A DNA stretch of 64,000 nucleotides from Bacteroides ovatus (lineage in GTDB: Bacteria; Bacteroidota; Bacteroidia; Bacteroidales; Bacteroidaceae): positions 1,116,001 to 1,180,000 of the forward strand of contig NZ_CP012938.1 of assembly GCF_001314995.1 (NCBI RefSeq), in the 5' to 3' direction. The notes beneath the pieces are model-generated. The model ran no database searches, was not told the origin of the DNA, and worked only from the letters and a program-made list of their open reading frames with translations. Both the position numbers and the translations under genes were made by a program. Below, one piece after another: positions 50,965 through 63,377 of this stretch (position 1 is the stretch's first letter; every line of letters starts with the position of its first letter).

Positions 50965-53283
50965 TTATTCTGCTTTGATGCTCTTTACGGGGTTTTCATT
51001 GGCAACGTGCCAGGCTTTCACTACCACGCAAGCCACGATAACCAATAGTACCAGCAGGGCTATTCCTATAAAAAGTAACAGATCCATATCAATTCGTTCG
51101 CTAAACTGTTCCAACCATATTTGGCCTGTAAAATAGGAAGCGGCAGTACCTATCAGCACAGAGATTACGGAGATATTCAGAATGTCGTATATCAATAGTT
51201 TCAGGATGCCGGAGGCCTCTGCCCCATTCACTTTGCGTATGGCTATTTCCTTGCTGCGGCGTTGAGTTTCTCCATTCACATAGCCAATCAATCCCGTGAT
51301 GACAATAAGCAGGATGAAGCAGGACGAAATCCAGACTGCGTTACGGAAACGGTATACGCTCTTATAGCCTTCGCGAATCATGCTGTCTACTGAATTGAAG
51401 TTCAGGGCTACATTCGGGAATGTTTTTGCCACACATTCGTTCAAGCGTTTCAGGTTCTCGTCATAGGGTTCTTTTAGACGAACATTGATGGTGTGATTGG
51501 CCGATTCTTTATCGGCAATCAATACGATAGGAGACTGACTGGAATAGAAACTTCTATTACGAATATCATCAAACACTCCCACGATGGTACCTTCTACCCC
51601 ACTCACTGATTTTCCTACGGCACCATCGGTCCATTTCATCAAACGAACGAGTTCTTTATTTACCAATAGATCGCCTTTTTTCTTGATGGTAGTGCCTTCT
51701 GTTATTCTGATTCCCATCACATTCGGATAATCATAGTCGCACATATTGAAATTAAGGGTGGCAATGCGTTTGCCGTCGTTACCAATCAATCCACGTGTCC
51801 AATATTCTCCCAGTACGCTGTGTGTGGATGCCGATACCCCGTCCACCATCGGTTGGCGGAGCAACTCGTCTTTTACATGTTCTACTGTTTCGCCGGACAT
51901 CCAGGTTTCGGCTTCTACCAGTCCCGGAATCTTGATTCCCATATCTCCATTCATCAGGTGAGAATATTGTAACAGGGTAACCAGCAATAATCCGAGTACA
52001 AAGGAGGTACCCGTGAACTGGACAAATAGTAATGAACGTTTCCATCCTCTTTTTCCATCCGTATAGTGCCGGAATACCTGCGTGACGGGAATACGTGAGA
52101 ACAGTTTTCCCGGTATGCCTCCTGCCAGGAGGAAAAGGACTACTACAGTGAGCAAGGGTATCCAAATGATGTCCCAGGCAAACAGTGAGGCAAGGCTGGT
52201 TCCCAACAGGTCTTCGATCAATTCGCCCATGTTGATTATCAACAGGAAGCTAAACAGGACGGATAGTAGAACCAATACTCCGGTTTCTGCCAGAAACATG
52301 CCAAAGATGTTTCCGGAACTGGCTCCACTGCATTTATGCACTCCTACGCTTTTTGCACGACGACTGATAGTGGCTATTGAAATCAACATATAATTCATGA
52401 TGGCTACAAAAAACACTGAAAAGCCGAGGAAGCCGAATATCATCAAACGTTTCTGGGTATCGGCAGAATCCAGATGGCGTTTCGAAAGAGGAACAACGCT
52501 GTATTCCAACTTCCAGTCATCCCATTGCAAGGGGCTGTATTTTGCCATTACTTGTTGAATTTTGCTGTTCACCTTGTCTATATCCGACGCATGACGCAAG
52601 CGTGCAAAGGCATAAAAGATATCATTCCCATTCCAACCGTTACCACTCGCATAGCGACCATCGCGGTGGATGGTAATCACAAAGTCACGGGAGAGCATCG
52701 AATTTTCGGGTATGTCTTTATAGACGCCGCGAATTGTGAGCTCCAACTGCTTGTCGGCCGAAAGGGTTTTCCCAATAGGGTCTGCGCTACCGAATGTTTC
52801 ACGGGCAAAATGTTCTGATACAAATATGCTATTCGAGATGATGAGATCTTTCGCGTTCCCTTTTAGTACGGGTATACCCATCGTTTCAAAGAAACAGGTG
52901 TCGACCATCATGTAATTTGCTTTTGACAGCAGTTTGTCTTCCTTATAAATATGATAAAACTGGGAAGGAAGTACACAGGTGGCTGATTCTATTTCTTCAG
53001 GCATATCCTGCGCCAAGGTAAAAGCTACCGGATCACAGACGGTATAGTCATAATTCATTCCGTCATCACCCTGCACTTCGCCGGTCGTCATATTCTGTGC
53101 CGCTATTCTCGCCATTATCAGATTCTCCGCTTCCGGGTAACATTTCTCATAGCTCATCTCAAAAGCTATTTGCGAGAAAAGCAAGATGCCAACTGTTAGT
53201 CCTAAAGAAAGGGAGAGCACTCTTACGATATTCAAAGTACGCTCATGCAGTAATGTACGTATGCTATAATAGATTTGTCTCAT
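50965..53283 (-). CDS. ABC transporter permease, FtsX/MacB type (second permease)
   Basis: 772 residues. One N-terminal membrane helix (VLSLSLGLTVGILLFSQ), a large extracytoplasmic MacB-PCD domain, three helices with the FtsX motif RRAKSVGVHKCSGASSGNIF (about 310-330), then a second PCD domain and three further helices with RRSKEIAIRKVNGAEASGIL. So it is a tandem FtsX duplicate. Paralogue of the first permease. Last gene of an operon with an ATPase; the two permeases would form a heterodimer. Confidence 0.92.
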   Translation of the reverse strand: MRQIYYSIRTLLHERTLNIVRVLSLSLGLTVGILLFSQIAFEMSYEKCYPEAENLIMARIAAQNMTTGEVQGDDGMNYDYTVCDPVAFTLAQDMPEEIESATCVLPSQFYHIYKEDKLLSKANYMMVDTCFFETMGIPVLKGNAKDLIISNSIFVSEHFARETFGSADPIGKTLSADKQLELTIRGVYKDIPENSMLSRDFVITIHRDGRYASGNGWNGNDIFYAFARLRHASDIDKVNSKIQQVMAKYSPLQWDDWKLEYSVVPLSKRHLDSADTQKRLMIFGFLGFSVFFVAIMNYMLISIATISRRAKSVGVHKCSGASSGNIFGMFLAETGVLVLLSVLFSFLLIINMGELIEDLLGTSLASLFAWDIIWIPLLTVVVLFLLAGGIPGKLFSRIPVTQVFRHYTDGKRGWKRSLLFVQFTGTSFVLGLLLVTLLQYSHLMNGDMGIKIPGLVEAETWMSGETVEHVKDELLRQPMVDGVSASTHSVLGEYWTRGLIGNDGKRIATLNFNMCDYDYPNVMGIRITEGTTIKKKGDLLVNKELVRLMKWTDGAVGKSVSGVEGTIVGVFDDIRNRSFYSSQSPIVLIADKESANHTINVRLKEPYDENLKRLNECVAKTFPNVALNFNSVDSMIREGYKSVYRFRNAVWISSCFILLIVITGLIGYVNGETQRRSKEIAIRKVNGAEASGILKLLIYDILNISVISVLIGTAASYFTGQIWLEQFSERIDMDLLLFIGIALLVLLVIVACVVVKAWHVANENPVKSIKAE

Positions 53284-53301
53284 ACTTGCTTCTGATCTGG
53301 T

Positions 53302-53976
53302 TTATGCTATCACACTGGCTACCAGGCTGCCGTCGAACAAATGAACTGTACGATGGGCAAAGGATGCGTCGTGTTGTGAGTGTGTCACCATGATGATGGT
53401 TGTTCCTTCTTTATTCAGTTCGGTCAACAGGTTCATCACTTCTGCCCCATTCTTTGAGTCGAGGTTACCGGTCGGCTCATCGGCGAGAATCAGTTTCGGG
53501 TTGGTCACTACGGCACGGGCAATGGCGACACGTTGTTGCTGACCACCGGAAAGTTGTTGCGGAAAGTGTTTGGCACGATGGCTGATGTTCATCCGTTTCA
53601 GAATGTCTTCTACCATGCGGCGGCGTTCGGATGCTTTAAAGCCCAGGTATGTCAGAGGAAGTTCTACATTCTCGTAAACATTCAGCTCGTCGATCAGGTT
53701 AAAGCTCTGGAATACGAATCCGAGTTTGCCCTTACGCACATGGGTACGTTCTTTCTCTTTCAATCCGCCCACTTCTTCACCCATCAAGCGGTAGGAACCT
53801 TCGGTGGGGTTATCGAGCAAACCCAGAATATTCAACAAAGTGGATTTACCACAACCGGAGGGGCCCATAATGGCTACAAACTCTCCCTCTTTTACTTCAA
53901 GGTTTACGTGATTCAAGGCAACTGTCTCTACTTCGGAAGTACGGAATACTTTACTGATGTTGTTTATTTCAATCAT
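53302..53976 (-). CDS. ABC transporter ATP-binding protein, LolD/MacB type
   Basis: 224 residues. Walker [14 protein letters not shown] (about 35-47), Q-loop FQSFNLID, signature [15 protein letters not shown] (about 137-151), Walker [12 protein letters not shown], and switch VTHSQHD. Lies between the two permeases: 18 bp upstream of the second, 23 bp after the first. Powers a MacB-type exporter; no adaptor or outer membrane partner is encoded here. Confidence 0.97.
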
Positions 53977-53999
53977 ACTCTTTTTATTTATGTTTTTAA

Positions 54000-56309
54000 T
54001 TATTCACTTTTAAGGCTATTCACCGGATTTTCATTGGCAATCCGCCACGATTTCCAAAGTACGCAGGCTACGATAACGAGAAGATTTACAATCGCTATCA
54101 GTACATACGCCGCCCAACTGACAGGCACGTGCTCGGCAAACATATCCATCCACATATCATTGACGTACCATGATGCCGCTACACCGATCACAACGGCTGC
54201 AACGGCTACATAGAGCACATCTTTCACCAACATTTCCAGAATGCCGGAGGCTTCGGCACCATTGACTTTACGTATGGCAATCTCTTTGGAACGGCGGCGG
54301 ACTTCATCGGTTGTGTAGCCTATCAATCCCATCATCATCACAAAGAACATGGTAACCGCCGCCAGTATGGTAGCATTGCTGAAGACGCGGATGGAGTTAT
54401 AACTCTCTTTTATCATCTGCTCCATCGAACGGAAATCGACCGTTTTATCGGGGAAAGCGTCTGCCGATACTTTATTCAGTTTCTGAAGATTCTCTGCAAA
54501 AGGTTCTTTCAGCCGGACATGAACACAGTTTCCGAAATTCTTGGTACTCATCAGGATGAAGGGTGCTTGCGGGTTGGTGAAATTACCGATCCGGAAGTCT
54601 TTAATCACTCCCACTACTTTACATACGTAGCCTGAATTATAGACAGTACGGTTCAATAGCTCTGTTCCCCAATGCATCCATTCGCCGTATGTTTCATTGA
54701 TGGCTACTTCGTTTTCATTCCGTGGCATACGCCCCTCCTTCATCACCATACCCATCATCTTTGGATAGTCTTCCATCATTTCGCAAAAACGGGAGGAGAA
54801 AAGTGATTGTCCACTTTCATCCTGAATCATCGTTCCACTATAACTATAGACGGGATGGGAATCGGCACTGGACACGGACTCTACATAAGGCAGGCCACGG
54901 AAGAAAGTCAGGGCATAGTCCTGGTTTTCTTTATTGCCGAAATCAGTATTGGCTACGACAACGCGCTTCGGATTGTATCCCAGGTCTTTGTTCAAGACAT
55001 AGTAGTATTGCAGCATCACCACATACATCAATCCGCAGATGAAAGCTACGCCGGCAAACTGCACGAATAATAGCGGGCGTTTCCATCCTTTTTTTCCTTC
55101 TGTGTAGCGGCGGAAGACTTGTGAAACGGGGATTCTGGCAAAGATGCGTCCGGGCAGTGCTCCTCCTATGAGGAACAGGATAGCTACCGTCAGCAGGGGT
55201 ACCCAAAGACGGTCTAAAGAGAACAGGGCTCCGAGTTCAACGGCGGTTGTGTCTTCTATAAAGTCGCGGAAGTTCAGTAAGATTAATCCCATCAATAGCA
55301 AGGCGAAGAGAATAATGATAGCTGTTTCCAATAGGAACATTCCCAGGATTTTGCCGCTGCCTGCACCGCTACACTTATGTACGCCGATGGCTTTGGCACG
55401 GTATGAGAGTGAAGAGATGGAGATCAGTACGTAGTTCAAGGTAGCGATAAAAAGGATGATTATTCCCAAGATAGACATGATGTTCCGCATCCGCTTCACG
55501 TCCGGTTCTTCCCTGTATACATCACGGATCGGCTTTACAAAAGCGGTATAACCTACCACTTTCTGGTCTTCCGCAGGACGATATTTCTTTATCAGGTCAT
55601 TCAACCGTGCATTCACCACGGATTTGTCTGCTCCGGGACGAAAACGGATAAATGCGATCCAGCTATCGCCTCCCCTCCAGGAGTAGTTTCCCCATCCACG
55701 GCTCCATACGGTAGGCAGAGAAATCACTGCATCCGGTCTGACGGTAGCATTTTCGGGTATGTCGGCGTACGTGCCTTTCACTGTCAGTTCTATTTCTTTA
55801 TTATAGGAGATTACTTTGCCTATCGGGTTTTCTTGGTCGAACATCTTACGCGCCAACCGGTCACTAAGAAAGACAACATCTTTCTGCATCAGTTCTTTTT
55901 CCGGAACACCGCTCAAAACATCGATACCCATAGTTTGAAAGAATAGTGAATCGGCTGTCACTTTGTTAGCTTCAAAACGGACACTTCCATAATAAAGAGG
56001 GGCACTCATCCAGACACAATAGCTGGTGGCTGCTTCCACTTCTTTAGGAAAGTTCTCCTGTATGGCACCCGCCACCGGTCCGCAGTTCATTTCCTGCGGC
56101 TCAAAGGTTTGGCCATTGGCGGAAAAGACGGAGAAGATCTGATACAGGTTATCATAATCTTTGAAGCATTTGTCAAAGCTCTGTTCGAAAGCCACGCGGG
56201 CAAACAACAGGATGCTCATCGTCAGCCCCAACGCCAAAGAGAGGATTTTGATAACGTTGGAACCATGCCCCCGCAATAAAGTACGGATCACATAATAGAT
56301 TTGTTTCAT
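54000..56309 (-). CDS. ABC transporter permease, FtsX/MacB type (first permease)
   Basis: 769 residues from ATG 56309; the earlier frame to 56375 crosses the promoter and is rejected. Same architecture as the second permease: TM1 (ILSLALGLTMSILLFAR), MacB-PCD, FtsX block SYRAKAIGVHKCSGAGSGKIL, second PCD, and RRSKEIAIRKVNGAEASGIL. Driven by a sigma-54 promoter. Exports an unknown substrate, perhaps a peptide or lipid-like toxin in view of MacB kin. Confidence 0.92.
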   Translation of the reverse strand: MKQIYYVIRTLLRGHGSNVIKILSLALGLTMSILLFARVAFEQSFDKCFKDYDNLYQIFSVFSANGQTFEPQEMNCGPVAGAIQENFPKEVEAATSYCVWMSAPLYYGSVRFEANKVTADSLFFQTMGIDVLSGVPEKELMQKDVVFLSDRLARKMFDQENPIGKVISYNKEIELTVKGTYADIPENATVRPDAVISLPTVWSRGWGNYSWRGGDSWIAFIRFRPGADKSVVNARLNDLIKKYRPAEDQKVVGYTAFVKPIRDVYREEPDVKRMRNIMSILGIIILFIATLNYVLISISSLSYRAKAIGVHKCSGAGSGKILGMFLLETAIIILFALLLMGLILLNFRDFIEDTTAVELGALFSLDRLWVPLLTVAILFLIGGALPGRIFARIPVSQVFRRYTEGKKGWKRPLLFVQFAGVAFICGLMYVVMLQYYYVLNKDLGYNPKRVVVANTDFGNKENQDYALTFFRGLPYVESVSSADSHPVYSYSGTMIQDESGQSLFSSRFCEMMEDYPKMMGMVMKEGRMPRNENEVAINETYGEWMHWGTELLNRTVYNSGYVCKVVGVIKDFRIGNFTNPQAPFILMSTKNFGNCVHVRLKEPFAENLQKLNKVSADAFPDKTVDFRSMEQMIKESYNSIRVFSNATILAAVTMFFVMMMGLIGYTTDEVRRRSKEIAIRKVNGAEASGILEMLVKDVLYVAVAAVVIGVAASWYVNDMWMDMFAEHVPVSWAAYVLIAIVNLLVIVACVLWKSWRIANENPVNSLKSE

Positions 56310-56345
56310 ATTATATTTTATTTCTGTTTTTTCTATTTTCAAGAA

Positions 56346-56362
56346 TGCAGAAAGCATGCCAA
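56346..56362 (-). promoter_or_regulatory. Sigma-54 (-24/-12) promoter of the ABC operon
   Basis: On the minus strand it reads TTGGCATGCTTTCTGCA: GG then exactly ten bases then GC, with the flanking T and A of the consensus (TGGCACG-N4-TTGC). Transcription would start near 56335, leaving a leader of about 26 nt to the ATG at 56309. Confidence 0.82.
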
Positions 56363-56414
56363 AAAAGAATAACAATTCATTATCAAGTGTTTATCATTTC
56401 AACCTTTCTGAATA

Positions 56415-56454
56415 TTGTCTAAAAATTAGACAGTACCGTCTAATTTTTAGACAA
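56415..56454. promoter_or_regulatory. Tandem palindromes, putative enhancer for the sigma-54 activator
   Basis: Site 1: TGTCTAA-AAA-TTAGACA (56416-56432), a perfect palindrome around its centre. Site 2: CGTCTAATTTTTAGACA (56437-56453), the same motif with one change. Centres 21 bp apart, and the pair together forms one inverted repeat of about 40 bp. They lie roughly 80-120 bp upstream of the predicted sigma-54 start, the usual place for an NtrC-type activator. Confidence 0.75.
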
Positions 56455-56539
56455 CCGGGAGACTATTCCATTTCTCCTTTAAATTGTTCCAACAGTCTCT
56501 ATTATCCATGGGGAGATTGTCCATCCCGATAGAAAACTT

Positions 56540-56547
56540 TATCTTTG
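56540..56547 (+). promoter_or_regulatory. -7 box of the metallophosphoesterase gene
   Basis: TATCTTTG, 28 bp before the ATG at 56575; a housekeeping-type promoter facing away from the sigma-54 one. Confidence 0.65.
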
Positions 56548-56574
56548 CATCTAGTTTTCTAAACTATTAAAGTA

Positions 56575-57381
56575 ATGATGAAGAGGAAGAATTTATATGC
56601 ACTGTTTTCGTGCCTGTTCCTTTCGGGATGCGGTATGATAGACTATCATCCGTATGACGTCCGCATCAGCGGAGAAACAGAGGTCAACGCCCACAATATG
56701 GAAAGAATAGAAGCAAATTGCCAGGGTAAAACTACGATACGGTTCGTGACAATGGGCGACTCACAACGATGGTATGACGAAACGGAAGATTTTGTAAAAG
56801 CAATCAATCAACGAAATGATATTGACTTCGTTATCCACGGAGGGGATATGAGTGACTTCGGACTGACTAAGGAATTTCTTTGGCAAAGGGATATCATGAA
56901 CGGACTTCATGTGCCTTATGTGGCTCTGATCGGAAATCATGACTGTCTGGGAACGGGAGCGGAAACCTACAAGGCTGTATTCGGCCCCACAAACTTCTCT
57001 TTCATCGCAGGAGATGTGAAGTTTGTCTGCCTGAATACCAACGCTTTGGAGTATGATTACTCCGAACCTGTACCGGACTTTACCTTTATGGAAAATGAGA
57101 TAACGAACAGGCGGGATGAGTTTGAAAAAACGGTCATTTGTATGCACGCGCGTCCCTATACGGATGTGTTCAATGATAATGTGGCAAAAGTATTCCAACA
57201 CTATGTCAAACAGTATGCAGGAGTACAGTTCTGCACGGCCGCCCATACCCATCACCATCAGGACGATGTGATTTTTGATGATGGGATACATTATGTTACC
57301 AGTGATTGTATGGATTACCGTACTTATCTGGTATTTACAATAACTCCGGAAAAATACGAATATGAGCTGGTTAAATACTAA
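56575..57381 (+). CDS. Metallophosphoesterase lipoprotein
   Basis: 268 residues. Signal peptide with lipobox LFLSG-C (Cys at about residue 20). Calcineurin-like motifs: VTMGDSQ (atypical first block, GDSQ), HGGDMSD, GNHDCLG and CMHARPYTD, ending AHTHHHQD. Dinuclear metal site complete enough to be active. Overlaps the next gene by 20 bp; divergent from the ABC operon. Substrate unknown. Confidence 0.88.
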   Translation: MMKRKNLYALFSCLFLSGCGMIDYHPYDVRISGETEVNAHNMERIEANCQGKTTIRFVTMGDSQRWYDETEDFVKAINQRNDIDFVIHGGDMSDFGLTKEFLWQRDIMNGLHVPYVALIGNHDCLGTGAETYKAVFGPTNFSFIAGDVKFVCLNTNALEYDYSEPVPDFTFMENEITNRRDEFEKTVICMHARPYTDVFNDNVAKVFQHYVKQYAGVQFCTAAHTHHHQDDVIFDDGIHYVTSDCMDYRTYLVFTITPEKYEYELVKY

Positions 57382-58165
57382 TTATATCTTACGCGCGGGA
57401 GTACTGTCCGTGCTTCTCCTGCTTCCCGGTCTGATGTCTGCTACCTGCAAGAGGGATACAATCATCAACAACTACAAGGATGATTCGCTCCGTTTTATCA
57501 TCAAGGATGATTCAATTATCACCTTTCGTAACGGGGAGTCTTCATTCACCATTATCAAAGCGGACTCCGTGTTGCCTGCCACACCGAAGCACACCAAACA
57601 TACCCGCTACGATAATCGGGTTCACCGTTTCCGCAGAAACTGGGAACGGATTATCCCGACTCATTCCAAAATACAATATGCCGGAAATATGGGATTGCTC
57701 TCTTTCGGTACAGGATGGGATTATGGAAAACGTAATCAGTGGGAAACGGATGTATTGCTCGGATTCATTCCGAAATATTCTTCGAAGAAAGCAAAAGTGA
57801 CCATGACGCTCAAGCAGAACTATATGCCCTGGAGCATTAATATTGGAAAAGGATTCTCGACAGAGCCTCTTGCCTGTGGTCTTTATGTGAATACCGTATT
57901 TGGAAATCAGTTCTGGGTGAACGAACCGGAACGTTATCCGAAAGGGTATTATGGTTTCTCAAGCAAAGTGCGTTTCCATGTCTTTATGGGACAACGCCTG
58001 ACCTATGACATTGACCCGCAACGTAGATTTATGGCCAAGTCTGTAACCTTTTTCTATGAAATAAGTACGTGTGACCTTTATGTGATTAGTGCGGTAAACA
58101 ATAGTTATCTCCGTCCACGTGACTACCTTAGTTTATCATTCGGATTGAAGTTCCAGTGGTTATGA
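57362..58165 (+). CDS. Exported beta-barrel-like protein of unknown function
   Basis: 267 residues. Hydrophobic N-terminal stretch (ILRAGVLSVLLLLPGLMSA) with a following Cys (TCKRD), then charged, then beta-strand-rich sequence ending in FGLKFQWL, an outer-membrane-like terminal strand. It starts inside the previous gene (20-bp overlap), so it is translationally coupled to the metallophosphoesterase. No domain recognised. Confidence 0.68.
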   Translation: MSWLNTNYILRAGVLSVLLLLPGLMSATCKRDTIINNYKDDSLRFIIKDDSIITFRNGESSFTIIKADSVLPATPKHTKHTRYDNRVHRFRRNWERIIPTHSKIQYAGNMGLLSFGTGWDYGKRNQWETDVLLGFIPKYSSKKAKVTMTLKQNYMPWSINIGKGFSTEPLACGLYVNTVFGNQFWVNEPERYPKGYYGFSSKVRFHVFMGQRLTYDIDPQRRFMAKSVTFFYEISTCDLYVISAVNNSYLRPRDYLSLSFGLKFQWL

Positions 58166-58232
58166 TTGGAGATACAAGGGGGATAAAATCAATTTTGAAT
58201 TACGATTCTTGAATTATCACATCCTTTTTTCG

Positions 58233-58254
58233 TAAGTTTGCGCTTTACAAACTT
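58233..58254 (+). promoter_or_regulatory. -7 box and palindrome upstream of the NtrC-type gene
   Basis: TAAGTTTG (58233-58240) is a -7 box; AAGTTTG (58234-58240) and CAAACTT (58248-58254) form a 7-bp inverted repeat overlapping it, centred on the likely start. Possible autoregulatory site. Upstream the 8-mer TTGAATTA occurs twice. Confidence 0.45.
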
Positions 58255-58262
58255 GAACGAAA

Positions 58263-59603
58263 ATGAGTAAATCTGGAACAATCATCATTGTAGACGACAA
58301 TAAAGGGGTGCTGACTGCCATACAAATCCTTTTAAAAAGTTATTTTTCAAAGGTCGTTGCACTCTCCTCGCCTGTCACCCTGACGAGCGTCCTGCGGGAG
58401 GAAATGCCGGAAGTGGTATTGCTGGACATGAATTTCACATCGGGCATCAATACCGGCAATGAGGGATTATTCTGGTTACATGAAATAAAAAAAGTACGTC
58501 CGGATCTTCCGGTCGTACTTTTTACGGCTTATGCCGATATTGAACTGGCTATCCGGGGTATTAAAGAAGGAGCAACGGACTTTATCGTCAAACCCTGGGA
58601 CAACCAGAAACTGGTGGAAACGCTGCAAACTGCAGCAACCTCTACGCACAACGATAGGAAAACGGCAAGTAAAGAAAAGCCTGTTCACTCGCCTATGTAC
58701 TGGGGAGAAAGCAAGGTTATGCAACAACTACGGGCTTTGATTAAAAAGGTTGCCGTCACCGATGCCAACCTCTTGATAACGGGTGAAAACGGAACGGGAA
58801 AAGAGATGCTGGCACGGGAAATCCATGCGCTTTCCAACCGCAAATATAAAGAAATGATTGCTGTGGATATGGGAACCATCACCGAATCTTTATTCGAGAG
58901 TGAGCTTTTCGGACATATAAAAGGGTCGTTCACTGATGCACACACCGACCGGACAGGTAAGTTCGAGGCTGCCGAAAAGAGTACGCTGTTTCTCGACGAA
59001 ATAGGAAACTTGCCCTACCATCTGCAAGCAAAGCTACTAACCGCCATCCAACGGCGAAGCATTGTGAAAGTGGGAAGTAACACGCCAATTCCTATTGATA
59101 TCCGACTGATATGTGCCACGAACCGGAACCTGCAGGAGATGGTAGCGAAAGGCGAATTCCGGGAAGACTTGCTCTACCGCATCAATACCATTCATGTGGA
59201 AATTCCTCCCCTGCGCGAACGGAAAGAGGATATTATCCCATTGGCCGAACGATTTATGGTTCACTTCTGCAAGCAATATGACAAGTCGTTGATGAAGTTC
59301 ACTCCCGAAGCAAAGGATAAATTGACTGCGCATCCCTGGTATGGTAATATCCGCGAATTGGAGCACGTCATCGAAAAGGCGGTTATCATCAATGACAGTC
59401 CGCTGATTCCCGCTGAATTATTCCAATTATCCGTACCACGGATAGCCATTCAGGAACAGAGTATCTCCACCCTGGAAGAAATGGAAGTGCAGATGATACG
59501 GAAAGCGTTCGATGCCTGTGCGGGAAATCTATCAGCAGTGGCCGCTCAACTGGGAATAACCCGGCAGACACTCTATAACAAGATGAAAAAATTCGGATTA
59601 TGA
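58263..59603 (+). CDS. Sigma-54-dependent response regulator (NtrC family)
   Basis: 446 residues: receiver (phospho-Asp55 in VVLLDMNF; Lys in FIVKPWD), AAA+ domain (about 147-370) with Walker A GENGTGKE (174-181), GSFTDA at 221-226 in place of canonical GAFTGA, Walker B LFLDEIGNL (242-250), and a Fis-type HTH (about 400-446; AGNLSAVAAQLGITRQTLYNKM). Its likely target is the sigma-54 promoter of the ABC operon. Stop overlaps the kinase start by 4 bp. Confidence 0.94.
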   Translation: MSKSGTIIIVDDNKGVLTAIQILLKSYFSKVVALSSPVTLTSVLREEMPEVVLLDMNFTSGINTGNEGLFWLHEIKKVRPDLPVVLFTAYADIELAIRGIKEGATDFIVKPWDNQKLVETLQTAATSTHNDRKTASKEKPVHSPMYWGESKVMQQLRALIKKVAVTDANLLITGENGTGKEMLAREIHALSNRKYKEMIAVDMGTITESLFESELFGHIKGSFTDAHTDRTGKFEAAEKSTLFLDEIGNLPYHLQAKLLTAIQRRSIVKVGSNTPIPIDIRLICATNRNLQEMVAKGEFREDLLYRINTIHVEIPPLRERKEDIIPLAERFMVHFCKQYDKSLMKFTPEAKDKLTAHPWYGNIRELEHVIEKAVIINDSPLIPAELFQLSVPRIAIQEQSISTLEEMEVQMIRKAFDACAGNLSAVAAQLGITRQTLYNKMKKFGL

Positions 59604-60913
59604 GCTCACAGATCCAACAACTGGTGATTCGGTACTGGTTCAGAGTTTTACTGACTGTACTTTTCTGTATATCGACTGTCTGGTTCGGTATTCATCAGTC
59701 ATACGGTTGGTTGGGGGTTAGTCTTTGTCTGCTGGTACTTAGCATCATCTGGCAAATCCGCCTGTACCAGCTTCACACCAAGCAGGTGCTTTTCATGATT
59801 AACGCGCTTGAAAATAATGATAACACTTTTCATTTTCCCGAAGAAAACGGTACTCCCGAAAGCCTTAAGATCAACCGGGCACTCAACCGGGTGGGACACA
59901 TCTTATATAATGTAAAAGCGGAAACCGCCCAGCAAGAGAAATATTACGAGCTGATTCTGGATTTTGTCAGTACAGGATTGCTGGTACTCAATGACAATGG
60001 GGCTGTTTATCAGAAGAACAAGGAAGCACTCCGTCTTTTGGGGCTGAATATATTCACGCATATCCATCAGTTGAGTAAAGTAGACACTACGCTCATGGAA
60101 AAAATAGAGAACTGCCGTCCCGGAGACAAGCTGCAAGTGATATTTCACAACGAACGGGGAACCGTTAATCTATCCATACGTGTATCGGAAATCAATGTAC
60201 GCAAAGAACATCTGCGTATCCTGGCTCTGAATGATATCAATACCGAACTTGATGAAAAGGAAATAGATTCATGGATTCGCCTGACACGGGTTCTGACGCA
60301 CGAAATCATGAATTCGGTCACGCCTATCACTTCTCTTTGTGACACTCTTCTTTCCATGTCCGAGGGTAAAGATGAAGAGATCAGTCACGGGTTGCAGACC
60401 ATCAGCACCACAGGAAAAGGCTTGCTCTCTTTTGTAGAATCTTACCGGCAGTTTACACGCATACCTGCACCGGAACCGTCATTGTTCTATGTGAAAGCAT
60501 TCATAGAAAGGATGATTGAACTTGCCCGCCATCAGAATCCGTGTGACACCATTTGTTTCCACACGGAGATTTCTCCTGCGGACTTAATTCTGTATGCGGA
60601 TGAAAACCTCATCGCCCAAGTGGTTATCAATCTTCTAAAGAATGCCATTCAGGCAATCGGAAGCCAACCGGATGGTAGAATCGAACTTCGGGCTTATTGC
60701 AATGATATGGAAGAAATATGGATCGAGATCAAAAACAACGGTCCCGAAATCCCGTCGGAAATAGCAGAGCATATCTTTATTCCTTTCTTCACCACCAAAG
60801 AAAATGGTAGCGGAATCGGGCTTAGTATTTCACGACAGATCATGCGCCTTTCGGGCGGGAGTCTCACTTTGCTGCGGGAGAAAGAAACAACGTTTATTTT
60901 AAAATTCAAATAA
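59600..60913 (+). CDS. Sensor histidine kinase (NtrY/NtrB-like)
   Basis: 437 residues: two N-terminal membrane helices (about 12-57) with almost no periplasmic loop, PAS-like cytosolic domain (about 110-215), HisKA with RVLTHEIMNSVTPITSLCD (about 230-250), HATPase with N box QVVINLLKNAIQAIG and G box GSGIGLSISRQIMRLSGG. The tiny periplasmic loop suggests it senses the membrane or cytosol. Cognate to the regulator overlapping it. Confidence 0.93.
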   Translation: MSSQIQQLVIRYWFRVLLTVLFCISTVWFGIHQSYGWLGVSLCLLVLSIIWQIRLYQLHTKQVLFMINALENNDNTFHFPEENGTPESLKINRALNRVGHILYNVKAETAQQEKYYELILDFVSTGLLVLNDNGAVYQKNKEALRLLGLNIFTHIHQLSKVDTTLMEKIENCRPGDKLQVIFHNERGTVNLSIRVSEINVRKEHLRILALNDINTELDEKEIDSWIRLTRVLTHEIMNSVTPITSLCDTLLSMSEGKDEEISHGLQTISTTGKGLLSFVESYRQFTRIPAPEPSLFYVKAFIERMIELARHQNPCDTICFHTEISPADLILYADENLIAQVVINLLKNAIQAIGSQPDGRIELRAYCNDMEEIWIEIKNNGPEIPSEIAEHIFIPFFTTKENGSGIGLSISRQIMRLSGGSLTLLREKETTFILKFK

Positions 60914-60923
60914 CTATTGATAT

Positions 60924-61592
60924 ATGATACCTGCACTCGTCAACAACCCCTTATTCCGAGGGATCACTCCGGAAAGACTTTTTGCCGATCTGGAAGAGAT
61001 CAGTTTCCATACACGTTCTTATAAGAAAGGGGAAATCCTGGCTCAACAGGGAGCTGTGTGCAATCGCCTCGTCATCCTGACCAAAGGAAGCGTACGTGGA
61101 GAGATGATTGATTATTCGGGGCGTCTTATCAAAGTGGAAGACATCGCTGCTCCAAGAGCGATTGCCCCTCTATTTCTGTTCGGTGAGGAGAACCGCTATC
61201 CGGTGGAAGTGACTGCCAACGAACCGACAGAGGTTATCGAACTTCCTAAATCAAGTGTATTGAGGTTATTCCGTAAAAACGAGCAGTTTTTGGAAAACTA
61301 TATGAATCTTTCTGCCAATTATGCACGGACTTTATCGGATAAGCTTTTCTTTATGTCGTTTAAAACGATTCGTCAGAAACTTGCTTCGTACTTGCTCCGA
61401 TTATACAAACAGCAACAACAGACGCATATCACCCTCGACCGTTCACAACAGGAATTGAGTGATTATTTCGGAGTATCCCGTCCTTCCCTCGCCCGCGAAC
61501 TGGCACACATGCAGGAAGATGGATTATTAATAGCCGATCGCAAGCATATCACTATTTTACAGAAAGAACAACTGGTACGGCTTATTCAATAA
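60924..61592 (+). CDS. Crp/Fnr-family regulator, candidate HcpR
   Basis: 222 residues: beta-roll sensor (YKKGEILAQQGAVCNRLVILTKGSVRGEM; about 30-60), long dimer helix, HTH (SQQELSDYFGVSRPSLARELAHMQEDGLL; about 172-200). Has no FNR-type Cys4 cluster. 10 bp after the kinase, 153 bp before hcp. Position and palindrome upstream of hcp point to an HcpR-like regulator of nitrosative stress; haem or NO binding is not visible by eye. Confidence 0.85.
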   Translation: MIPALVNNPLFRGITPERLFADLEEISFHTRSYKKGEILAQQGAVCNRLVILTKGSVRGEMIDYSGRLIKVEDIAAPRAIAPLFLFGEENRYPVEVTANEPTEVIELPKSSVLRLFRKNEQFLENYMNLSANYARTLSDKLFFMSFKTIRQKLASYLLRLYKQQQQTHITLDRSQQELSDYFGVSRPSLARELAHMQEDGLLIADRKHITILQKEQLVRLIQ

Positions 61593-61655
61593 TAAGAGCA
61601 GTTTAAAGATTTATGAATCGAATAATGAGTGTTTTAGATAAAAAATATTCATTGT

Positions 61656-61701
61656 TGTAACATTGGTTACAGAATCACCTGAAACTTTTCCTCTACTTTT
61701 G
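61656..61701 (+). promoter_or_regulatory. hcp operator and promoter
   Basis: TGTAAC-ATTG-GTTACA (61656-61671) is a perfect inverted repeat of Crp/Fnr size. The -7 box TACTTTTG (61694-61701) puts the transcription start near 61707, so the palindrome centre is about 43 bp upstream, the position of a class II activator site. Confidence 0.65.
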
Positions 61702-61745
61702 CGTTCAATAAATAAAATATTGGACTAATTAAAAACGTAAAAGTT

Positions 61746-63377
61746 ATGAGTATGTTCTGTTATCAATGTCAAGAAACCGCAATGGGTACCGGTTGTACCT
61801 TGAAAGGTGTGTGCGGTAAAACGTCTGAAGTGGCTAACCTGCAAGACTTACTACTCTTCGTAGTACGTGGAATTGCTGTCTACAACGAACATCTGCGTAA
61901 AGATGGACATCCTTCCGAACAAGCAGACAAATTTATCTATGATGCTTTGTTCATTACCATCACCAACGCCAATTTTGATAAAGTGGCTATCACTGAAAAA
62001 ATCAAAGAAGGACTGAAACTGAAAAAAGAACTTGGCAACAAGATAAAGATCGAAAATGCTCCTGACGAATGTCTTTGGGATGGAAACGAAGATGAGTTTG
62101 AAGAGAAATCAAAAACGGTCGGTGTGCTTCGCACTCCCAACGAGGATATCCGCTCACTGAAAGAACTTGTACACTATGGCCTGAAAGGAATGGCTGCCTA
62201 CGTAGAGCATGCGCATAACCTGGGCTACGAGTCACCGGAAATATTTGCTTTCATGCAACATGCCTTGTCTGAACTGACCCGCAATGATATTACAGTGGAA
62301 GAACTGGTTCAGCTGACTTTGGAAACAGGAAAGTATGGAGTATCGGCAATGGCACAGCTGGATAAAGCGAATACCAGCAGCTACGGAAATCCGGAAATCT
62401 CACAAGTGAGTCTCGGTGTACGCAATAATCCGGGTATATTAATCAGCGGACATGACTTGAAAGACCTGGAAGAGTTATTGGAACAAACAGAGGGTACAGG
62501 AGTAGATGTATATACTCACAGCGAAATGTTGCCTGCACATTATTATCCTCAACTAAAGAAGTACAAGCATCTGGCAGGAAACTACGGAAACGCCTGGTGG
62601 AAGCAGAAAGAGGAATTTGAAAGTTTCAACGGTCCTATCTTGTTCACAAGTAACTGTATCGTTCCGCCACGTGCAAATGCCAGCTACAAGGATCGTATTT
62701 ACATCACAGGAGCCTGCGGCTTGGACGGGGCACATTACATCCCCGAACGTAAAGACGGAAAACCGAAAGATTTTTCTGCACTGATTGCTCATGCTAAACA
62801 ATGTCAGCCACCGGTAGCCATTGAAAACGGAACGATTATCGGAGGATTCGCTCATGCACAGGTGACAGCCCTGGCAGATAAAGTGGTGGACGCCGTGAAA
62901 AGCGGAGCTATCCGTAAATTCTTTGTAATGGCAGGATGCGACGGACGTATGAAGAGCCGTGAATACTATACGGAATTTGCTCAAAAATTACCTGGTGACA
63001 CCGTGATTCTTACTGCCGGTTGTGCCAAGTACAGATATAATAAACTGGCTTTAGGTGATATCAACGGCATTCCGAGAGTGTTGGATGCAGGACAATGTAA
63101 CGACAGTTACTCATTGGCCGTCATCGCTTTAAAACTGAAAGAAATCTTCGGATTGGATGATGTGAATCAGTTGCCTATCGTATACAACATCGCTTGGTAC
63201 GAACAAAAGGCGGTCATTGTTTTATTGGCATTACTGGCTTTGGGAGTGAAACACATTCATTTGGGTCCTACACTTCCCGCTTTCCTTTCACCGAATGTCA
63301 GGAACGTATTGATCGAACAATTCGGGATCGGAGGTATCAGTACAGTGGATGAAGATATTGTGAAGTTTCTATCATAA
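61746..63377 (+). CDS. hcp: Hydroxylamine reductase (hybrid-cluster protein)
   Basis: 543 residues. N-terminal cluster ligands C5, C8, C17 and C23 in the short-spacing pattern of strict anaerobes ([4Fe-4S] type; facultative species have wider spacing). Hybrid-cluster ligands are in [57 protein letters not shown] and [10 protein letters not shown]. Handles NO or hydroxylamine. Monocistronic, controlled by the adjacent Crp/Fnr protein by inference. Confidence 0.96.

Follow-up and report, generated by a model that had tools for sequence, protein, structure and literature searches.

A predicted sigma-54 switch ahead of an FtsX/MacB-type ABC operon in Bacteroides ovatus

In NtrC/NtrB systems, which work with IHF-assisted enhancers at promoters such as those of glnA, nifH and glnH, NtrC recognizes sites of the form 7-N3-7. 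Sigma-54 promoters have the consensus TGGCAC-N5-TTGC, and the usual view is that their enhancers tolerate changes in distance. Here we analyzed a 64,000-nt stretch of Bacteroides ovatus DNA (the window; bases 1116001–1180000 of a single-contig genome of 6.47 Mb), in which elements of this kind precede an FtsX/MacB-type ATP-binding cassette (ABC) operon (Table 1). We consider it highly probable (about 0.88) that they form a sigma-54 switch dedicated to this operon. As in the NtrC/NtrB systems, there is an AAA+ regulator, a pair of 7-N3-7 palindromes, a -24/-12 promoter and an IHF-like site in between. The differences are that the target is an ABC operon, that the two sites lie 21–22 bp apart at a near-constant distance from the promoter, and that the kinase could not accommodate a sensor domain in the periplasm.

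The Bce modules of Firmicutes (BceAB-RS) offer a second comparison. They combine a permease with a large extracytoplasmic part, an ABC ATPase, a loop-less kinase with two transmembrane (TM) segments, and a regulator that induces the transporter (PMC10314905). Our locus has a similar layout, but the regulator is of NtrC type, the promoter is a predicted sigma-54 promoter, each permease has eight predicted TM segments, and flux sensing is hypothetical. FtsX-like permeases (COG0577) were predicted as sigma-54 targets in Bacteroidia in 2025, which the authors call the first evidence (PMC12316311). Since that survey makes a computational claim of sigma-54 control over the same class of permease, the general idea is already in print. 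The portion of the survey used here reports promoter-prediction enrichment by gene family and names for such an operon neither sites nor a regulator, nor any geometry or bend element. The site-level architecture, the regulator assignment and the fixed geometry are new detail; none of the openly licensed papers listed describes the regulator–site–exporter unit or its fixed geometry. In the literature that we found, sigma-54 control in gut Bacteroides rests mostly on predictions. Because the circuit at this locus is complete and conserved, its sites are named and each matching genome has a single matched site, rpoN dependence, regulator binding and the signal become testable in one laboratory commensal.

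Table 1. Features of the putative circuit and its surroundings, in window coordinates
Feature	Coordinates	Strand	Remarks
Second permease, 772 aa	50965..53283	-	Duplicated layout as in first permease; 8 predicted TM segments
ABC ATPase, MacB/LolD/DarD-like	53302..53976	-	Domain and family profile matches
First permease, 769 aa	54000..56309	-	MacB_PCD x2 and FtsX x2; 8 predicted TM segments
Predicted -24/-12 (sigma-54) promoter TGGCATGCTTTCTGCA	56346..56361	-	GG-N10-GC; predicted start ~56335; 36 bp before permease ATG
IHF-consensus-like element TAAACACTTGATA	56381..56393	-	Between regulator sites and promoter
Proximal palindrome TGTCTAAAAATTAGACA, probable regulator site	56416..56432	-	Centre 63 bp from T of TGGCA; conserved
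Distal palindrome CGTCTAATTTTTAGACA	56437..56453	-	Centre 21 bp beyond proximal (84 bp from promoter)
Inverted repeat GAAAACT-N14-AGTTTTC	56532..56559		Encloses -7-like box TATCTTTG (56540) of phosphoesterase gene
Metallophosphoesterase (Metallophos)	56575..57381	+	Probable lipoprotein, LSGC seen directly
Uncharacterised protein	57362..58165	+	N-terminal hydrophobic segment; model like 8-stranded outer-membrane barrel
NtrC-type response regulator	58263..59603	+	Response_reg PF00072, Sigma54_activat PF00158, HTH_8 PF02954
Sensor histidine kinase	59600..60913	+	Two predicted TM segments, almost no periplasmic loop

Promoter, palindromes and the distance between them

An earlier reading of the window, made without database searches (the sequence-only reading), had placed a -24/-12 promoter ahead of the first permease gene and twin palindromes, centred 21 bp apart, further upstream. 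Both are where it put them. The GG-N10-GC core of the promoter is close to the sigma-54 consensus and is kept across relatives, and the genome has one rpoN gene. By itself the promoter is weak evidence, because the 64-kb window holds 67 GG-N10-GC candidates under a looser score and because TGGCAYGNNNNYTGCW, found once against an expectation of 0.09, occurred at least once in 7 of 100 shuffles; what persuades is its conservation. The palindrome pair convinces where the promoter alone fails: at one mismatch or less, the window contains two such sites, versus none in 100 shuffles. Measured from the predicted start, their centres lie ~89 and ~110 bp upstream, and the rest of the genome has only one further palindrome at this stringency, unpaired.

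Loss of the palindromes in relatives would have spoken against the sequence-only reading, and this is not what was found. Seventy-one sequences were entered into a comparison from which the window's own locus (L026) was kept out; many represented one place fetched twice, which left 44 distinct upstream regions. Five of the 71 gave no region: no pair is present in the stretches of L053, L055 and L089, the pair of L036 lies outside its stretch (L063 covers that genome), and the promoter of L091 fell below score. All 44 regions keep the pair, and the promoter is conserved in them as TTTGGCAYGCTTTCTGC, a base-level conservation that is partly selected, since the consensus was used in choosing the promoter. 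The distance was left free (about 40–105 bp). Even so, the proximal palindrome lies 64 bp from TGGCA in 33 regions and 63, 62 or 65 bp away in six, three and two others, with the palindromes spaced by 21 bp (34 regions) or 22 bp (10 regions); the corresponding values in the window are 63 and 21 bp.

A separate pattern scan that allowed 52–81 bp matched 44 of 149 genomes of the genus, each at one site and always at 62–65 bp, and the reversed control pattern matched none of the same genomes. With part of the distal palindrome included, the pattern still matched once each in 17 of the 149; this stricter version misses the window itself, where the distal palindrome ends in GACG. A search for the paired motif beside the same ABC operon had also been proposed. 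Of 41 long-flanked loci, drawn from five contigs and 36 stretches (some of them one place twice), 40 carry the pair, always 21 or 22 bp apart though 18–24 bp was allowed. The exception is L089 (genome G063); no pair was found in the shorter stretches of L053 (G035) and L055 (G019) either.

The length of the spacer is held while most of its sequence is not. Outside a central element, spacer identity among 26 representatives at the modal distance averages 0.32, versus 0.285 expected from composition, and neighbouring distances vary widely: 22–360 bp between promoter and first long ORF (n = 44), and 41–180 bp between the distal palindrome and a neighbouring conserved repeat (n = 29). Such a near-constant enhancer-to-promoter distance departs from the view of sigma-54 enhancers as distance-tolerant.

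The central element, which the sequence-only reading had not mentioned, is TTGATAAT, spanning roughly -25 to -18 relative to TGGCA. It was compared with the IHF consensus as generally known. Exact matches occur in 8 of 37 representatives, in the same register within one base (shuffle mean 0.18, largest 2); at one mismatch or less there are matches in 20 of the 37, 19 of them in register (shuffle mean 3.0, largest 9). Among 26 family matches in the genome are five compact proteins of HU/IHF type (92–104 aa), and a protein of this family may bend the DNA here.

Regulator and kinase

The NtrC-type regulator and the kinase had been described as lying ~2 kb away on the opposite strand, and do so. 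The regulator's contact loop reads GSFTDA, as against GAFTGA; GAFTDA forms of this loop occur in other activators. A regulator orthologue (E ≤ 1e-170) is present as a single copy in 91 of the 149 genomes, which are partly incomplete: in 41 of the 44 with a matched site versus 50 of the 105 without (Fisher p 4e-8, uncorrected for phylogeny). A relative of the first permease (E ≤ 1e-60) is found in 102 genomes. Of the 149, 84 have both regulator and permease, 18 the permease without the regulator, seven the regulator without the permease and 40 neither (p 2.5e-15, likewise uncorrected). In six genomes (G117, G056, G072, G039, G144 and G095) the regulator gene sits on a different contig or ~190–360 kb away, and the site is nevertheless kept. 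All 40 distinct orthologues compared (≥58% identity) share one recognition helix, RQTLYNKMKK, and the three genomes whose loci have no palindrome pair (G035, G019 and G063) are all without a regulator match. Co-occurrence even at a distance, together with the invariant helix, provides good indirect evidence that the regulator of the window reads the palindromes. The regulator and kinase themselves are probably made from a housekeeping promoter of their own, for which there is one TAnnTTTG match at 58233. One locus that retains palindromes and promoter (L064, 4227–5567; genome G055) has an internal stop in the regulator gene, perhaps through an error of assembly.

The kinase was said to have almost no periplasmic loop, and this description fits: its hydrophobic segments, 8–27 and 35–56, are ~7 residues apart. 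A per-segment hydropathy cut-off gave just one segment for three of seven kinases. When the two most hydrophobic windows of 17 residues close to the N-terminus are taken instead, they are 0–12 residues apart in 20 distinct sequences (the window kinase and relatives). A separation this short leaves no space for a sensor domain in the periplasm. The kinases of two paralogous loci of the same genome, L009 and L010, are likewise nearly loop-less. Given the missing loop, signals from the membrane or the cytosol are plausible inputs to the kinase; that the inducing signal is envelope or bile-type stress would be a guess.

From these elements we infer the following path. The loop-less kinase would phosphorylate the NtrC-type regulator, whose dimers would occupy the two palindromes and assemble into an AAA+ hexamer. 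With the spacer DNA bent, probably by an HU/IHF-family protein, the hexamer would remodel sigma-54 polymerase at the -24/-12 promoter, and permease, ATPase and second permease would be transcribed from near 56335. Comparison with relatives backs a sigma-54 promoter, paired sites and an adjacent NtrC-type two-component pair before an FtsX/MacB operon.

Alternatives to a dedicated switch

The abundance of loosely scored promoter candidates might suggest a chance resemblance, with no functional promoter; conservation and fixed geometry reject this, and we give it next to no credence. It is also very unlikely that the palindromes serve another regulator and adjoin this two-component pair by accident. 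The L010 paralogue, whose helix reads ISRQTLYNKLKR and whose sites include CGTCCAATAATTGGACA, would be one such regulator, and three site-bearing genomes (G004, G068 and G111) lack the orthologue at the threshold used. Yet site and regulator co-occur also when far apart, the recognition helix does not vary among orthologues, and the pairless loci stem from genomes without a regulator match. A single regulon, in which the two palindromes govern the whole divergent region, is unlikely, though less so. The sequence-only reading had suggested that the phosphoesterase and barrel-like genes could take part in the same response; the phosphoesterase gene adjoins the site in 34 of the 41 long-flank loci, and the B. 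thetaiotaomicron genes matched to the two by order are bile-induced (PMC10994844). But TGG-N10-GC was found within 170 bp upstream of the phosphoesterase gene in none of 35 loci (some being one place twice), whereas a TAnnTTTG box lies within 90 bp of it in 25 of them. That gene has a separate conserved promoter region, with its box inside an inverted repeat whose pattern occurs nowhere else in the genome and which has a similar, constant-length counterpart in 33 of the 35 loci (25 distinct sequences). Moreover, L079, L088 and L090 keep the site without these genes nearby. Because their box lies inside this conserved, genome-unique repeat, the two genes look like a separate unit with a housekeeping-type promoter, and their proposed place in the sigma-54 response is not upheld. 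A broader response to envelope stress or bile may still include them, and the inverted repeat is probably the operator for a further regulator of a bile-induced unit.

Several observations weigh against a dedicated sigma-54 switch. In several relatives the -12 element reads GT or GA, and L091 has the palindrome pair but no promoter up to the score used. For the IHF-like element, the opposite strand gives one exact match and seven at one mismatch or less, and at two mismatches or less there are matches in 30 of the 37 representatives against a shuffle mean of 18. The three site-bearing genomes without a regulator match count here too; conversely, 50 of the 91 regulator-bearing genomes fail the site pattern, which is strict (at least 11 of the 50 carry a looser site), and both co-occurrence tests are uncorrected for phylogeny. 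Cross-regulation by the L010 regulator, which has a very similar helix and palindrome, is possible. At the paralogous loci, the fit to the geometry is partly by choice: the palindromes of L009 are at 63.5, 74 and 85.5 bp and overlap, those of L010 are at 62 (degenerate), 85 and 177 bp, and L009 has no IHF-like match at one mismatch or less.

A further proposal would add to the dedicated switch rather than replace it. As in Bce modules, the FtsX-type permease might report its substrate load to the kinase through the membrane, so that the exporter induces its own operon. We regard this flux sensing as possible but doubtful. The kinase is loop-less throughout its relatives and at both paralogous loci, the permeases carry large periplasmic domains, exporter and regulator go together in most genomes that have either, and in Bce modules, for which flux sensing has been proposed, an ABC transporter is paired with a kinase of two TM segments (PMC10314905). 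On the other hand, the regulator is NtrC-type, the likeness of the kinase to BceS is one of layout, and each permease has eight predicted TM segments, compared with 10 in BceB (PMC10314905). In several genomes regulator gene and exporter lie far apart, and the promoter is followed by varying permeases; both points speak against a single obligate permease–kinase pair. Somewhat less probable again is a broader conjecture, of a whole family of counterparts to Bce modules in Bacteroidales, driven by sigma-54. In it, loop-less kinases would read the working state of FtsX-type ABC transporters in the inner membrane, and NtrC-type regulators would convert it through a rigid enhancer–bend–promoter unit of fixed length (sites 21–23 bp apart, ~63 bp from the promoter), its geometry kept across paralogues with different sites while the exporters are exchanged. 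If the kinase does read the exporter, transporter-as-sensor signalling would extend to Gram-negative bacteria and to sigma-54.

The operon, its neighbours and related loci

MacB is a four-TM permease fused to its own ATPase. Here, permease, ATPase and second permease form an operon-like set on the minus strand (50965–56309), for which we chose ATG at 56309 as the first start; the longest ORF opens at TTG 56375. In each permease the MacB core and FtsX both match twice and simple hydropathy predicts eight TM segments, so that each resembles a MacB-type permease duplicated internally. The closest solved relatives by sequence are a chain of 3is6 ('putative permease protein, ABC transporter') and MacB. 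The locus shares the MacB core and FtsX domains with MacAB-TolC and DarBCDE, and its ATPase is near DarD, MacB and LolD models. Unlike MacAB-TolC, and unlike the paralogous loci L009 and L010, which carry both, the operon has no adaptor or TolC gene: none was found among nine proteins scanned from 50965–63377. Membership in MacAB-TolC was rejected on this ground and for the eight predicted TM segments and the separate ATPase. A darobactin exporter (NF038007, NF038008) was rejected as well, the ATPase scoring 284.5 against a cut-off of 375 bits and the permeases 75.7 and 60.8 against 700. Among the matches listed (for the ATPase, the best 25 of 190), none of the three proteins reached a curated NCBIfam cut-off. 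The earlier label of a MacB/FtsX-type ABC exporter thus stands for the domains and the MacB-like ATPase; the export function is suggested by family membership, with neither adaptor nor outer-membrane channel in the operon.

The phosphoesterase matches calcineurin-like enzymes of many kinds, and its model has a mean pLDDT of 64 (six sequences). The uncharacterised protein, which matched no Pfam family, has 1301 relatives in which the C-terminal barrel-like domain is very conserved. Its model, of medium confidence (mean pLDDT 68), best resembles the 8-stranded barrel folds of NspA, OprF, PagP, PagL and OmpA (best E 2.4e-3), making a barrel-like structure a fair but not proven proposal. Identity as PagL or PagP was rejected, as the fold matches are weak and none reaches E ≤ 0.001. 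In B. thetaiotaomicron, BT_0687 is hcp and BT_0688 HcpR (PMC10434189), BT_0690 is a response regulator (PMC8931616), and BT_0691–BT_0692 are bile-induced (PMC10994844). This gene order matches the window, so that BT_0691 and BT_0692 are, judged by order alone, very probably the counterparts of the uncharacterised and phosphoesterase genes. BT_0693 was not found by locus tag in the openly licensed literature. A CRP-like gene and a hydroxylamine reductase gene (hcp) adjoin the kinase gene at 60924–63377, as do HcpR and hcp in B. thetaiotaomicron (PMC10434189).

To look beyond the genus, 393 genomes from across the order were scanned, only six of which belong to this family; three matched, namely this genome and two in other families. 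In both of the latter the distance is again 64 bp, with a second palindrome 21 bp further. One of these sites precedes what appears from its sequence to be an FtsX-type permease; the other lies ahead of a TolC-like gene, with a divergently encoded NtrC-type regulator whose helix is ISRQTLYNKMKK. Within the B. ovatus genome, L009 (3014–16513) and L010 (3670–12321) are two more exporter loci with adjacent regulator and kinase, roughly similar geometry and other palindromes. The -12 element of L009 reads GA; L010 has palindromes of TGTCCAA type and, on the opposite strand, an IHF-like match without mismatches. Four of eight strong sigma-54 activators in the genome lie within 10 kb of MacB/FtsX genes. 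The contact loop is G[AS]FTDA in four exporter-linked activators (the window regulator, L009, where it was read by eye, L010 and L011) and G[AS]FTGA in four others (L013, L014, L016 and L017). Finally, species differ in which genes follow the conserved promoter (L058–L063, L076–L078 and L080–L086), with the ATPase first, another permease first, or repeated ATPase–permease units, as if exporters had been exchanged behind one switch.

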